From: Geminicoccaceae bacterium
GTDB lineage: Bacteria; Pseudomonadota; Alphaproteobacteria; Geminicoccales; Geminicoccaceae
Assembly (NCBI GenBank): GCA_028279345.1
Contig: JANQNY010000082.1
Span: 1-64,000, forward strand
Length of the DNA: 64,000 bases
Direction: 5' to 3'
Shown: positions 13,438 through 17,669 of the stretch, one piece after another
Layout of the letters: every line of letters begins with the position of its first letter
Position numbering within the stretch: position 1 is the stretch's first letter
Notes under the pieces: generated by a model
Database searches by the model: none
Seen by the model: the letters and a program-made list of their open reading frames with translations, nothing else
What the model was told of the DNA's origin: nothing
Translations under genes and position numbers: made by a program

Positions 13438-15039
13438 TCATACGCCGCCGTCGACCGCCAGCATCGCGCGAAGATCGCGGCGCAGCACTTTGCCGGTGGC
13501 CGTGAGCGGTAGGCTCTCGCGGAACACGACCCGGCGCGGCGTGGCATGCCGGCCTACGCCGTCTCGGACCCGTTCCTGCAGCACCTCGGCGAACTCGTCG
13601 CTGCCGGTGACGTCCTGGCGGGGCACCACGCAGGCGACCACCGCCTCGCCGCGCGCGTCGTCGGGGACGCCCACGACCGCGACCTGCGCCACGTCGGGGT
13701 GCTCGCCGATGACGGCCTCCACCTCGGCTGGGCCGATCCGGTAGCCCGCGGCGTTGATGAGATCGTCGTCGCGGCCGAGGAAGGTGACGTAGCCATCGGC
13801 GTCCATCCGGCCGACATCGCCCGTGATGAGCCAGTCGCCGCGGAACTTCGCTTGCGTCGCCGCCGGATTGTCCCAGTAGCCGAGGAAGATCACCGGGTCC
13901 GGTCGGTGGACGGCGATCAGTCCCGGCTCGTCCCAGGCCATGACGCCGCCGTCGTCGTCGACGATGGCGACGATGTGCCCCGGCACGGCGCGCCCGATAG
14001 CACCCGGCCGTCGTGCGAAGGATGAGGCCATGCCCGAAATCAACAAGTTGGCCTCGGTTTGCCCGTAGAACTCGTTGACGTCGCAGCCGAAGCTTCGCCG
14101 TACCCAGTCGGTTAGCTCGTCGCCGAGCGGTTCGCCGCCGCTACCGATGCTGCGCAGTCGAACGCTCGAAAGGTCGGGCTCGGCGCGTCGCAGCAAGCGC
14201 AGCGCCGTCGGTGGAAAGAAGACATTCCTGATCTCATGCTCCGCGAGGAAGCGCGCGACACGATCGGGATCGAACTTTCCGCCCGGTCCGGCCACCACGG
14301 GGATACCGAGGTAGAGGCTCGGCAGCAGCACGTCGAGCAGGCCGCCGATCCAGGCCCAATCGGCGGGCGTCCAGAACCGGTCGCCCGGTTGCGGCAATCC
14401 CTCGTGCGGCATCTCCACGCCCGGCAGGTGACCGAGGAGCACGCGATGGGCGTGGACGGCACCCTTGGAGGCGCCCGTCGTACCCGAGGTGTAGATGATG
14501 AGCGCCGGGTCCTCACTGTGCGTCACCTCGTGCGCGCACCAGGGTTCGGTCTCGTCCATGCGCTGCTGGAAGGTCGACGAATCCACGTCGAACACGCGCT
14601 CCAGCTCGGGAAGGTCGGGCTCGAGCGCGCGCACCCGCTCGGCGCCTTCGCGGTCGGCGATGACGAAGCGGACGCCCGCATCCTTGAGGCGGAAACGCAG
14701 CGCCTCCAAGCCGAACGCGCTGAACAGCGGGAGCGCGATGCAGGCGGTCTTGTAGACCGCAAAGTGGGCAAGCGCCGTTTCCGCGCGTTGCGGCATCAAG
14801 ATCGCGACCCGGTCCTCGGGCGCCGCGCCCTCATCGAAGAGGATGTTGGCAAGCCGATTGGAGAGCACGTCGAGCTCGCCGTAGGTGAAGCGGCGCGTGG
14901 GTGCCGTATCGCGGGCGTCGATCAACGCGAGCTGGTCGGGCGCGTGGCGCTCGAGGATCGCGGTCGCGATATTGAAGGCGTTGGGCACGTCCCAGCGAAA
15001 GCCCGCCATCCACGCCGCATAACCCTGCTCAGCGCTCAT
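13438..15039 (-). CDS. AMP-forming acyl-CoA synthetase (medium-chain/acetyl-CoA synthetase-like)
   Basis: ANL-superfamily ligase of 533 residues that activates a carboxylate with ATP and CoA. Motifs in order are IIYTSGTTGASKGAVHAH (P-loop-like A3), EFYGQTEANLL (A5), LITGDVGRMDADGYVTFLGRDDDLI (A7-A8 hinge) and PLTATGKVLRRDLRA with the catalytic Lys (A10). The N-terminus MSAEQGYAAWMAGFRWDVPNAFNIA resembles the AcsM/xenobiotic-type enzymes. ATG 15037-15039 is preceded by GAGGA at 4-5 bases; an ATG four codons upstream is possible. The acyl substrate is not resolvable from the sequence. Confidence 0.92.
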   Translation of the reverse strand: MSAEQGYAAWMAGFRWDVPNAFNIATAILERHAPDQLALIDARDTAPTRRFTYGELDVLSNRLANILFDEGAAPEDRVAILMPQRAETALAHFAVYKTACIALPLFSAFGLEALRFRLKDAGVRFVIADREGAERVRALEPDLPELERVFDVDSSTFQQRMDETEPWCAHEVTHSEDPALIIYTSGTTGASKGAVHAHRVLLGHLPGVEMPHEGLPQPGDRFWTPADWAWIGGLLDVLLPSLYLGIPVVAGPGGKFDPDRVARFLAEHEIRNVFFPPTALRLLRRAEPDLSSVRLRSIGSGGEPLGDELTDWVRRSFGCDVNEFYGQTEANLLISGMASSFARRPGAIGRAVPGHIVAIVDDDGGVMAWDEPGLIAVHRPDPVIFLGYWDNPAATQAKFRGDWLITGDVGRMDADGYVTFLGRDDDLINAAGYRIGPAEVEAVIGEHPDVAQVAVVGVPDDARGEAVVACVVPRQDVTGSDEFAEVLQERVRDGVGRHATPRRVVFRESLPLTATGKVLRRDLRAMLAVDGGV

Positions 15040-15159
15040 GGGTCCTCGCAACGCAAAACGAAGCTGCGAGAGACACCCGCCGGCACCGCTTCGTCAATCG
15101 GGCAAGGCGCCCGTCTAGACCCTTGTCGAACGATCACGGCCCACGTGAGCGGTGGCGAC

Positions 15160-15885
15160 CTAGACGCACCAGCGCGCGAGCGCCGCGTGGTGTGGCGCCG
15201 CCGCTTCCGCCAGACGCAGCTCCGCTGCGTCGAGCGGTCGATGTGGGCGCGAAGGGCTGAAGCCGGTGCTGCGATGGATAGCGTCGTACCAGTGCGACGC
15301 CCAGAGCCCGTCGCAGGGCCGCGGCCCTGCTGGCCAGGCTAGCATCGCCGGGTCGAAGGGGATATCGAGCGCCGCACACAGGCGTCTGAGCGCAGGTTCG
15401 GGGGCTCTGCGAACGGCATCGGCGTCGACCACCGGCGGTGCCTGGCCCAGGCGATCGGCCATGCGTTCGAACAGCTCGTGCTGGCGGACGAAGCCCAGAT
15501 CGTCGAGCGTCGGTCGCCGCCGCTTGGCGTCGTAGCTGGCGATCACCGCTTCGGGCGCTCTGATCAGAAAGGCGTTGCGGACCCGCTCCATCCAGTCGAG
15601 CGGGAAGCCTTCGACCATGTGGTGGGTCATGTGCTTCTGGTAGAAGACGCGCGCGCCTGCGGGTTGCTGCAGGCAATGCGCGGCGACGACGTGTGGGTCG
15701 GTCTCGTAAGCGTTGAGAACCTCGTCACGTAGCGGATGGTCGATGCCCGTCGCCCCCAGATAGGCCGCGTAGAAGGGCTCGTCCCAGACCTGCGTGTCGG
15801 CGCGGTTGTCGAAGCTGTACATGAGCGCGGTCGACAGGTTCCGCGGTCCCGACCACATGGCGATGGTGACGCCGTCGTCGCTCAC
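15160..15885 (-). CDS. Sulfotransferase-like P-loop protein, partner of the class IV aminotransferase
   Basis: 241 residues. The N-terminus VTIAMWSGPRNLSTALMYSFDNR is the PAPS 5'-phosphosulfate loop of sulfotransferases, followed by VWDEPFYAAYL, RVFYQKHMTHHMVEGF and RNAFLIRAPEAVIASY (3'-phosphate-binding region with Arg/Ser). Start is the GTG at 15883-15885, whose last bases overlap the TGA of the aminotransferase (GTGA). Plants carry a fused protein, BCAT-like with a sulfotransferase-like half, so this couple looks like the unfused form. Whether it binds PAPS or another nucleotide is unknown. Confidence 0.82.
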   Translation of the reverse strand: MSDDGVTIAMWSGPRNLSTALMYSFDNRADTQVWDEPFYAAYLGATGIDHPLRDEVLNAYETDPHVVAAHCLQQPAGARVFYQKHMTHHMVEGFPLDWMERVRNAFLIRAPEAVIASYDAKRRRPTLDDLGFVRQHELFERMADRLGQAPPVVDADAVRRAPEPALRRLCAALDIPFDPAMLAWPAGPRPCDGLWASHWYDAIHRSTGFSPSRPHRPLDAAELRLAEAAAPHHAALARWCV

Positions 15886-16802
15886 CGTCGCGTGTCCTCG
15901 TCGACGAGCGCTCGGTAGAGCTCGCGCAGCCGACGGGTTACAGGTCCGGCCTCGCCCGCGCCGATCACGCGGCCATCGATCTGGGTCACGGGCGTCTGCG
16001 CGCCGAAGGTGCCCGTGAGGAAGGCCTCGTCGGCATCGTAGGTTTCGACCAGCGAGAAGTTGCGCTCGAACACCGGGATGGCGTTGGCCCGGCACAGCTC
16101 GATCACCTTCCGCCGCGTGATCCCGTTCATGCAGTAGTCGCCGGTCGACGTCCAAACCTCGCCACGGCGGACGATGAAGAAATTGCACGAGTTCGTCGTG
16201 TTCACGAAGCCGTGCGGGTCGAGCATCAGCGCCTCGTCGGCGCCGGCCTTCTGCGCGTGAATGCCGGCTAGGATGCAGTTGAGCTTGGAGTGGGAATTGA
16301 GCTTGGGGTCCTGGGTGATCGGCAGGCCACGTACGATCGGTACCGTGAAGAGATGGATGCCGCGCGCGAAAGCCGCGCCGCTCGGGCGGCTGTGCTCCAG
16401 GATGATGACCACCGTCGATCCCTCGCGGGAGAGCCGCGGGTCTTGAAACGGTCGCGCCTTCGGGCCGCGCGTCACCATCAGCCGCGCATGCGCGTCGTCG
16501 GTTATGGCGTTGGCCGCGGCCGTCGCACCGAGGGCCGCCTCGAGCTCGGCGCGGGTGAGTCCGATGTCGAGGTCGATCGCCTTCGCCGCCTGAAAGAGGC
16601 GGTTCAGATGCTCGGCTAGGAACGCGAAACGGCCGTTGTGGAGGCGCAGCCCCTCCCACACGCCGTCGCCGAGCATGAAGCCCGCGTCGTAGACCGAGAC
16701 CTTGGCGTCCGCTTTCGGCACGAGCGCCCCGTTGACGTAGACGATCAGCGTCTCGTTGCGGGGATCGTCGTCGGCATCGTGGGTGGAGGTGGTGCTCGCC
16801 AT
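15882..16802 (-). CDS. Class IV PLP aminotransferase (branched-chain/D-amino acid type)
   Basis: 306 residues. The class IV pattern is complete: VYVNGALVPKADAKVSVYDAGFMLGDGVWEGLR, LAEHLNRLFQAAKAIDL, the PLP Lys in PKLNSHSKLNCILAGIHAQ, and DEALMLDPHGFVNTTNSCNFF with phosphate-binding residues. It probably transaminates branched-chain or related amino acids, but exact specificity cannot be read. Start is ATG 16800-16802 with AAGGACAGG upstream. Its stop overlaps the start of the P-loop partner. It is divergent from an SDR gene, with about 70 bases between for both promoters. Confidence 0.9.
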   Translation of the reverse strand: MASTTSTHDADDDPRNETLIVYVNGALVPKADAKVSVYDAGFMLGDGVWEGLRLHNGRFAFLAEHLNRLFQAAKAIDLDIGLTRAELEAALGATAAANAITDDAHARLMVTRGPKARPFQDPRLSREGSTVVIILEHSRPSGAAFARGIHLFTVPIVRGLPITQDPKLNSHSKLNCILAGIHAQKAGADEALMLDPHGFVNTTNSCNFFIVRRGEVWTSTGDYCMNGITRRKVIELCRANAIPVFERNFSLVETYDADEAFLTGTFGAQTPVTQIDGRVIGAGEAGPVTRRLRELYRALVDEDTRR

Positions 16803-16871: not shown

Positions 16872-17669
16872 GTGAGCGACAACAGGTCGAGTGGCGCGTC
16901 CTATGGGCTCGCGGGGCGGGTGGCCTTCGTCACGGGGGCCGGTTCCGGCATCGGCCGGGCGATTGCGCTTCGCTTCGCCCGCGAAGGTTGTCGCGTCGGC
17001 GTGTTGAGCCGCGATCCGGGCCGAGCCGCGGCGACCGCGGCCGCTGTCGAGGCGGAGGGGGTGGTGGCCGCCCACGTCGCCTGCGATGTCGCCGAACGGG
17101 CGGCCGTCGCCCCCGCCTTTGCGCAACTCGAAGCGGTGCTCGGCCCGCCACATATTCTCGTCAACAACGCCGGCATCATCCGCTTCGGCAAGCTGCTCGA
17201 GATCGACGAAGGCGACTGGGATCGGGTGTTCCGGGTCAACACCGACGGTGCGCTCTGGAGCTGTCGCGCAGTGGTGCCGGGCATGGTCGCGCGCGGCTAT
17301 GGGCGCGTCGTCAACATGGCGTCCTGGATGGGCAAGCAGGCGGCGCCGCTCTACGGCGCCTATGCGGCGAGCAAGTTCGCGGTGGTGGGGCTCACCCAGG
17401 CGCTTGCCGCCGAGGTCGCCGGCACCGGCGTCACGGTCAACGCGGTCTGCCCGGGACTCATCGTCGAGACCGAGATGCGTCGCCAGAGCGAGGCGGTCAT
17501 GGCCCGGCGCGGGCTGCCGTCAGCGGCGGAGCGAGTAGCGACGATCCCGCTCAAGCGCCCCGGCTATCCCGACGACGTCGCCAACGTCACCGCCTTCCTG
17601 GCGTCCGACCAGAGCGACTACATGACCGGCGAAGCGGTCAACGTCACCGGCGGGCTGTGGATGGGCTGA
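16872..17669 (+). CDS. Short-chain dehydrogenase/reductase (FabG-like)
   Basis: 265-residue classical SDR. The cofactor motif is TGAGSGIGRAIA at about residues 21-32, with an Arg at the end of strand 2 (SRDPGR) suggesting NADP(H). NNAGIIRFG follows, then catalytic Ser (NMASWMG) and YxxxK in YGAYAASKFA. The substrate is an alcohol/ketone of unknown identity. The start is GTG 16872. It converges with the cyclase gene, 7 bases after its stop. Confidence 0.9.
   Translation: MSDNRSSGASYGLAGRVAFVTGAGSGIGRAIALRFAREGCRVGVLSRDPGRAAATAAAVEAEGVVAAHVACDVAERAAVAPAFAQLEAVLGPPHILVNNAGIIRFGKLLEIDEGDWDRVFRVNTDGALWSCRAVVPGMVARGYGRVVNMASWMGKQAAPLYGAYAASKFAVVGLTQALAAEVAGTGVTVNAVCPGLIVETEMRRQSEAVMARRGLPSAAERVATIPLKRPGYPDDVANVTAFLASDQSDYMTGEAVNVTGGLWMG

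Follow-up and report, generated by a model that had tools for sequence, protein, structure and literature searches.

Introduction

The roles of the lysine, of the acidic residue at pyridine N1 (Asp or Glu) and of the phosphate-binding residues in fold type IV PLP enzymes are described in passages of PMC10003956. PMC4783884 mentions an aminotransferase-like protein 1 from a sea cucumber.

For the two genes studied herein, the fold, the sulfotransferase family and one crystallised lysine-less relative were already known. The relative is deposited as 7z79 ("aminotransferase-like protein from Variovorax paradoxus"), and 9j32 is its N174K mutant. In the open-licence literature of PubMed Central, no publication was found for 7z79 or 9j32, and no paper was found on the gene pair, its function, the family-wide loss of the lysine or the exchange of the sulfotransferase for an importer. 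The closest described sulfotransferase domains are those of CurM and the olefin synthase (4gbm, 4gox), which sulfate a polyketide-bound beta-hydroxyl to drive elimination. In plants, the branched-chain aminotransferase-like proteins At3g05190 and At5g27410 of Arabidopsis are presumably fusions of both halves; neither was found in the same open-licence literature.

The window is the whole analysed stretch of 64,000 nucleotides from a Geminicoccaceae bacterium. The original prediction, made from the letters of this DNA, was that a PLP transaminase is coupled to a sulfotransferase-like nucleotide-binding partner in a joint reaction, for example on a sulfated or phosphorylated amino acid derivative. 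That interpretation is partly supported by the data below. The pairing and the sulfotransferase are confirmed, the transaminase assignment is not, and the prediction did not foresee a further finding, namely that among nine genomes with only the aminotransferase-like gene, seven have an ABC importer in place of the sulfotransferase.

Gene pair in the window

The window carries both genes on its minus strand, and the pair was confirmed to be real. The predicted GTGA overlap was found as described (Table 1). The two domains are encoded by two genes in different reading frames and not by one chain. The aminotransferase-like protein, referred to as the partner of the sulfotransferase, matched PF01063 with 139.9 bits (cut-off 28.5), and the sulfotransferase matched PF19798 with 243.8 bits (gathering cut-off 23.2). 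The genome of the window has a single match to each of the two genes, the partner being searched at E <=1e-60. Among the relatives fetched for the aminotransferase-like protein, the nearest came from a Geminicoccaceae bacterium (L002, 79% identity). A CoA-ligase-like gene lies downstream (13438-15051) and an SDR gene lies upstream on the other strand (16872-17669); both were named by eye and are absent from the recurring neighbours.

Table 1 Features of the gene pair in the window and their conservation among relatives.
Feature	Coordinates	Strand	Details
Aminotransferase-like protein (PLP fold type IV), without catalytic lysine	15882..16802	-	306 aa; ATG at 16802, TGA at 15882
Sulfotransferase, PF19798 Sulfotransfer_5	15160..15885	-	241 aa; GTG start at 15885, stop at 15160
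GTGA overlap common to both genes	15882..15885	-	four bases shared
Arg68, cofactor-phosphate arginine, kept	16599..16601	-	all covering relatives (87/87 to 89/89)
Asn169 codon, at Schiff-base lysine position	16296..16298	-	alignment to archaeal BCAT 5cm0; Asn in 88/88 covering relatives
Thr202 codon, at pyridine-nitrogen glutamate position	16197..16199	-	Thr/Ser in 88/88 relatives
Gly227-Ile-Thr229, cofactor-phosphate loop, kept	16116..16124	-	Gly and Thr in 87/87 relatives counted
5'-phosphosulfate-type loop W11-SGPRN-x-STA20	15826..15855	-	kept in 44/44 covering rows of 50; Thr19 is Ser in one
Lys84 to His89, likely catalytic region	15619..15636	-	K84 in 50/50, H88 in 45/50, H89 in 47/50
3'-phosphate-type motif, Arg109 to Ser117 (spacing of 8)	15535..15561	-	both residues in 50/50 rows

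Co-occurrence and gene order

Relatives of the sulfotransferase were fetched from genome_contigs as the best 80 of 367 confirmed. The partner was on the same strand and within 1 kb in 61 of these 80, and 36 of the 61 close pairs (36/80 relatives) share an exact 4-nt overlap. The partner comes first in 59 of the close pairs and the sulfotransferase in only two (L072, L073). At one Oceanibium locus (L016) the two genes are 7.5 kb apart, and at 18 of the 80 loci the partner was not called in the fetched stretch, one of which (L032) has a partner fragment at the contig edge. When the genomes behind the 19 loci without an adjacent called partner were considered, 17 were searchable and all 17 contained a partner gene (E <=1e-40, best matches 52-76% identical).

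Similarly, the two genes were counted in two genome samples. In the phylum sample of 299 genomes, PF19798 was found in 22, the partner (E <=1e-60) in 25 and both in 22 (Fisher p 2e-30, ignoring relatedness). The corresponding numbers for the class sample of 250 genomes were 24, 30 and 23 (Fisher p 2e-25, again ignoring relatedness). The samples overlap; the distinct genomes comprise 41 with the sulfotransferase, 40 with both genes and nine with the partner only. G344, which is 87% complete, is the single sulfotransferase genome without a partner across the two samples. The pair genomes are spread over 21 family labels, and in nine of the 40 the genes are unlinked, being on different contigs or far apart (G083, G183, G205, G208, G226, G238, G334, G367 and G474).

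The co-occurrence is thus far beyond chance. The proposal that the pair is a functional unit is borne out by 22/22 and 23/24 sulfotransferase genomes with a partner, in many families and even when the genes are unlinked, and the pairing is not limited to close relatives. The recurrence of the pair in bacteria was found as co-occurrence, in 40 of 41 sulfotransferase genomes, and not as fusion: no in-frame bacterial fusion of both halves was seen among the loci examined.

Motifs and fold of the sulfotransferase

The AF2 model of the window sulfotransferase had a pLDDT of 95.5. When it was compared with solved structures, all of the best 50 matches listed were sulfotransferases, with the olefin-synthase domain 4gox (Z 14.1, rmsd 3.8) and tyrosylprotein sulfotransferase 1 (Z 13.9, rmsd 4.2) at the top. 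With the family profile, CurM (E 1e-8) and the olefin-synthase domain (E 3e-6) were the only solved chains recovered at E 0.01. The 5'-phosphosulfate loop and the Arg...Ser spacing of 8, which we take to be the PAPS-site motifs of known sulfotransferases, are both conserved (Table 1). The alignment of 50 rows includes two distant members (25%), and the six rows that do not cover the loop start later in the gene calls or are gapped. The sulfotransferase keeps the PAPS-type motifs and the predicted fold, as was expected of the nucleotide-binding partner, and the putative PAPS-binding residues are not lost in most homologues.

These motifs suggest PAPS as the donor. APS kinase (PF01583) was found in 21 of the 22 pair genomes of the phylum sample vs 271 of 299 genomes overall (some weak; 268 over the cut-off), which makes it too common to discriminate PAPS supply. 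It is absent from one pair genome, G032, which is listed as 100% complete and was searched twice, while a congener (G451) has one. PAPS supply is thus not universal among pair genomes.

Lost and kept residues of the aminotransferase-like protein

The aminotransferase-like protein was compared with 88 relatives, namely 86 covering rows (the window's own copies were left out) together with L108 and L117; two further partial rows do not cover the site. The active-site lysine region aligns without gaps, reading IKSLNYLN in the archaeal branched-chain aminotransferases vs LNSHSKLN in the window protein. Neither the Schiff-base lysine nor the pyridine-nitrogen glutamate is retained in any relative that covers these sites (Table 1). 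This includes all nine partner-only loci, which carry Asn at the lysine site. The tyrosine four residues past the lysine (position 173) is also replaced, by Lys in 46 and Arg in 42 of the 88, and His171 is kept in 86, with Leu in the other two. The residues around the cofactor phosphate remain: besides Arg68 and the Gly227-Thr229 loop, Thr265 is kept in 86 of 87 relatives and is Ser in one. Residues invariant in all 53 aligned rows include W49, R53, N98, H105, R107, R112, Q120, N169, S172, N204, T218 and S219, and the polar ones suggest a working site.

The AF2 model of this protein (pLDDT 90.4) was also compared with solved structures. The best 50 matches listed were all aminotransferases or aminotransferase-like proteins, with Z of 31.7-40.2 over 276-299 residues. 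All 19 NCBIfam models listed (BCAT, DAAT, ADC lyase) scored below their curated cut-offs, for example 243.6 vs 363 bits. Family libraries score the gene as a branched-chain or D-amino-acid aminotransferase; the lost lysine makes that doubtful for every relative examined. The label of PLP transaminase does not hold in view of these replacements, and since both residues are gone throughout the family, ordinary transamination of a sulfated amino acid as the joint reaction is unlikely. As a description of function, the name "aminotransferase" should be avoided for this lysine-less protein.

ABC importer in partner-only genomes

Nine genomes carry the aminotransferase-like gene without the sulfotransferase. 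In five of them (G247, G335, G371, G407 and G482), a binding protein, two permeases, an ATPase and then the aminotransferase-like gene follow one another on one strand; in G222, one opposite-strand gene lies between the binding protein and the permeases. Permeases and ATPases were named by eye; in G482, NCBIfam and Pfam identified the ATPase and the binding protein. The five remaining binding proteins share 44-72% identity with that of G482.

The binding protein was then searched (E <=1e-40) over the 40 pair genomes, the nine partner-only genomes and G344. It was found in seven of the nine partner-only genomes (the six above and G492), never more than about 5 kb from the partner gene, vs one of the 40 pair genomes, where it is unlinked (G463; Fisher p 3e-6). 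G344 had no match at this threshold, and the partner-only genomes G280 and G505 gave no match to either the sulfotransferase or the importer at the thresholds applied. From this distribution, the sulfotransferase and the importer appear to substitute for each other as partners of the same lysine-less protein.

In the tree, read by eye, importer-linked rows occur in three places among the sulfotransferase-linked rows. Five of the seven form one clade in which two sulfotransferase rows (L057 and L070) are nested. L106 stands beside L109, and L105 falls among Rhodobacterales-type sulfotransferase rows on a long branch, so that its placement is unsure.

Arg109 of the binding protein, which we take to be the carboxylate-binding arginine, is invariant in six aligned sequences. 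The TDSP aspartate in AncCDT-1, a solved relative, presumably holds the alpha-amino group; it aligns with Phe193, which is invariant in the same six binding proteins. Judged from this replacement in the alignment, a plain alpha-amino acid is an improbable ligand for the importer.

Neighbouring genes

Neighbour clustering at the first loci gave no third conserved gene, and only the two genes recur widely. Other recurring neighbours were present at 17 loci at most and were judged clade-specific by eye. The neighbour classification covered 117 proteins, of which 113 were from the 232 non-redundant neighbours and four were added by hand (three from L058 and the L109 sulfatase). No family among these 117 had more than four members, and the counts of two each for sulfatase and M24 include one hand-added protein.

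A sulfatase motif was present in only two of the 1607 called genes in 123 loci, which is a lower bound as some genes in AT-rich loci escaped the gene finder. One lies 8 bp from the sulfotransferase in L016 and the other 99 bp from the partner in L109 (G505, partner-only); both are over the choline-sulfatase cut-off. The L016 cluster also holds an amino-acid ABC transporter, and NCBIfam equivalogs for cis-3-hydroxyproline and trans-3-hydroxyproline dehydratase lie directly ahead of its sulfotransferase and partner. AcnX-like genes below the curated cut-off are present in L109, and prolidase-like neighbours were seen in Caulobacterales-type loci, Leucothrix and G214. The dehydratase, AcnX-like and prolidase-like genes made the hydroxyproline pathway a candidate for the general role.

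Two candidate pathway links were counted genome-wide and rejected. The trans-3-hydroxyproline dehydratase was found in 8/40 pair, 2/9 partner-only and 8/31 genomes with neither gene, and is thus no commoner with the pair, which argues against the hydroxyproline pathway as a general role. Choline-sulfatase was found in 16/40, 5/9 and 6/31 genomes, respectively; this difference is confounded by family, being concentrated in one, and choline-sulfatase was rejected as a general companion.

Discussion

The exchange of the sulfotransferase for an importer is most simply accounted for if both provide the same compound to the lysine-less protein. We tentatively favor the reading that the two genes form a metabolic module, in which this carboxylate-bearing compound would be processed by lysine-independent chemistry, and consider it a serious possibility, if somewhat short of an even chance. 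The sulfotransferase would move the sulfuryl group from PAPS onto a small carboxylate-bearing metabolite. The aminotransferase-like protein, unable to form the usual lysine-PLP internal aldimine, would then act on the sulfated product. Its kept anion (phosphate) cup may hold sulfate, phosphate or loosely bound PLP/PMP, and the new conserved polar block Asn169-Ser-His171-Ser172-Lys/Arg173 may take part in this chemistry. Where the sulfotransferase is lacking, the dedicated ABC importer would bring in this compound or a close analogue. The co-occurrence, the residue changes, the distribution of the importer, and the sulfatase and cysC genes near members of the two families speak for such a module. 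The lack of APS kinase in G032, the two partner-only genomes with no match to sulfotransferase or importer, the unlinked binding protein in the pair genome G463, and the failed or weak links to trans-3-hydroxyproline dehydratase and choline-sulfatase count against it.

The exchange of partners could also mean different substrates. If the importer-linked and sulfotransferase-linked proteins serve two unrelated uses, their mutual exclusion would be historical; the small number of partner-only genomes (nine) and the clade that unites most importer-linked rows (five of seven) and encloses two sulfotransferase rows fit such a history. However, L105 and L106 place importer-linked rows at two further positions in the tree, and the active-site block does not differ between the groups, so that we regard separate uses as quite unlikely. 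The lysine-less protein could instead be a pseudoenzyme that binds PLP or an anionic metabolite and, as a scaffold or regulatory subunit, controls the sulfotransferase or, in its absence, the importer. The family-wide loss of both hallmark PLP residues, the 4-nt overlap at 36 of 80 loci and the single, 87%-complete genome with a sulfotransferase and no aminotransferase-like protein in the two samples are in line with a subunit. Two unrelated partner types would be odd for one, however, the genes are unlinked in 9 of 40 pair genomes, and the new polar residues invariant in 53 rows (N98, H105, R107, R112, Q120, N169, S172, N204, T218 and S219) look like an active site. A regulatory role is possible, though we consider it rather unlikely.

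Catalysis itself may take more than one form. A lysine-free PLP/PMP enzyme would bind its cofactor non-covalently, with His171 or Lys/Arg173 as acid-base and Ser/Thr202 in contact with the pyridine nitrogen. The His-containing ColD/E1 sugar dehydratases are a precedent for acid-base work by histidine without lysine. The kept phosphate cup (Arg68, Gly227-Thr229, Thr265), a fold almost identical to that of PLP aminotransferases among the best 50 matches listed, and the N174K mutant that the depositors made of the solved relative all speak for a cofactor. Yet neither the lysine nor the histidine is universal, as position 173 is divided between Lys and Arg and two of the 88 relatives have Leu at position 171, and such an enzyme appears unlikely. 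An ordinary PLP transaminase acting on a sulfated or phosphorylated amino acid agrees with the PF01063 score and the aminotransferase fold, but the change of lysine to Asn and of glutamate to Thr/Ser throughout the family, with scores below the curated cut-offs for all 19 NCBIfam models listed, makes it very improbable.

Under the favored reading of a metabolic module, the strict pairing and the exchange between sulfotransferase and importer turn an orphan into a testable pathway and point to an undescribed metabolic step. The importer ligand would name the substrate of the whole family, perhaps also that of the plant proteins that we take to be fusions. A more specific proposal, which we put forward as speculative and on balance unlikely, is that lysine-free enzymes of the aminotransferase fold handle a sulfated non-amino-acid carboxylate, made via the sulfotransferase in some bacteria (possibly also in plants, via the fusion) and imported by the ABC transporter in others. 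If this is true, some bacteria would take up a sulfated metabolite that others make, and new chemistry would have arisen in an old fold.

Comparison with known systems

The CurM and olefin-synthase sulfotransferase domains are among the best fold matches of the window sulfotransferase, together with the tyrosylprotein sulfotransferases. Unlike these domains, the window sulfotransferase stands alone as a protein of 241 aa and has an aminotransferase-like partner. More distant PF19798 members are present on plasmids of Dolichospermum (L102) and Streptomyces (L103), with 74.1 and 59 bits, respectively, and about 30% identity. They are located 0.6 and 3 kb from cysC (APS kinase), and no aminotransferase-like gene is annotated in the stretches examined. 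We take their settings to resemble cylindrospermopsin-type and NRPS clusters.

The archaeal branched-chain aminotransferases 5cm0, 5e25 and 5mqz share the fold, the phosphate-binding residues and the Arg53/Arg107 positions with the window protein. However, their catalytic lysine, their pyridine-nitrogen glutamate and the tyrosine four residues after the lysine are all replaced in it. The closest structure to the window model is 7z79, which is 50% identical over 299 residues (Z 40.2, rmsd 1.6); its mutant 9j32 matches with Z 39.0. The TRG-x-K-x-x-P-x-QDPR and NSHS blocks are common to 7z79 and the window protein, whereas 7z79 has TGTLAG, as in the importer-linked L098, where the window protein has TGTFGAQ. 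N174 of 7z79 aligns with Asn169 of the window protein, so that both carry Asn at the lysine position.

Taxonomic placement

On the tree, three rows carrying the labels Actinomycetota, Planctomycetota and Gemmatimonadota sit amid alphaproteobacterial ones. The discordant labels of these three loci (L073, the Enemella evansiae TN21-6 record; L041; L053) are probably due to contamination or misbinning.

Gene neighborhoods

Nine Caulobacterales-type loci carry the aminotransferase-like gene and, separated from it by 14-61 bp, a gene for an M24 Xaa-Pro-type peptidase. In Leucothrix pacifica, the sulfotransferase is preceded by a TauD-like dioxygenase, an M24-like peptidase and a PALP-type PLP enzyme, and the partner gene is located at another site in the genome.

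Choline-sulfatase-like genes were observed at two loci. The Oceanibium sediminis cluster, whose locus end cuts through the aminotransferase-like gene, also contains the sulfotransferase, cis-3-hydroxyproline and trans-3-hydroxyproline dehydratases, a GntR-like gene and an amino-acid ABC transporter. In genome G505, the choline-sulfatase-like and aminotransferase-like genes are divergently oriented, with adjacent genes for AcnX-like subunits and a cystathionine-gamma-synthase-like gene; neither the sulfotransferase nor the importer was found in this 70% complete genome.

Features of the fetched loci
Feature	Locus and positions
M24 Xaa-Pro-type peptidase gene	L055, L012, L035, L046, L009, L051, L022, L066, L047
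Leucothrix pacifica sulfotransferase	L058:4480-8759
Oceanibium sediminis cluster	L016:6885-16707
G505 aminotransferase-like gene neighborhood	L109:7945-14254
Distant PF19798 members, pair genomes G067 and G226	L099:5656-9772; L100:7126-10160
PF19798 sulfotransferase, Dolichospermum plasmid	L102:7986-9914

PAPS supply and comparison with known systems

APS kinase was not detectable in G032, a pair genome; it is present in the congener G451.

The distant PF19798 members (about 25-30% identity) each adjoin a Rieske oxygenase gene and a gene that matches arylmalonate decarboxylase weakly, in L100 below the Pfam cut-off. L099 additionally carries an aldehyde dehydrogenase and, at greater distance, a dimethylglycine-dehydrogenase-like gene named by eye. 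The setting looks like quaternary-amine catabolism. On the Dolichospermum plasmid, cysC, amidohydrolases, a 2OG-Fe oxygenase and a MATE transporter lie near the sulfotransferase, a setting that resembles the cylindrospermopsin cluster.
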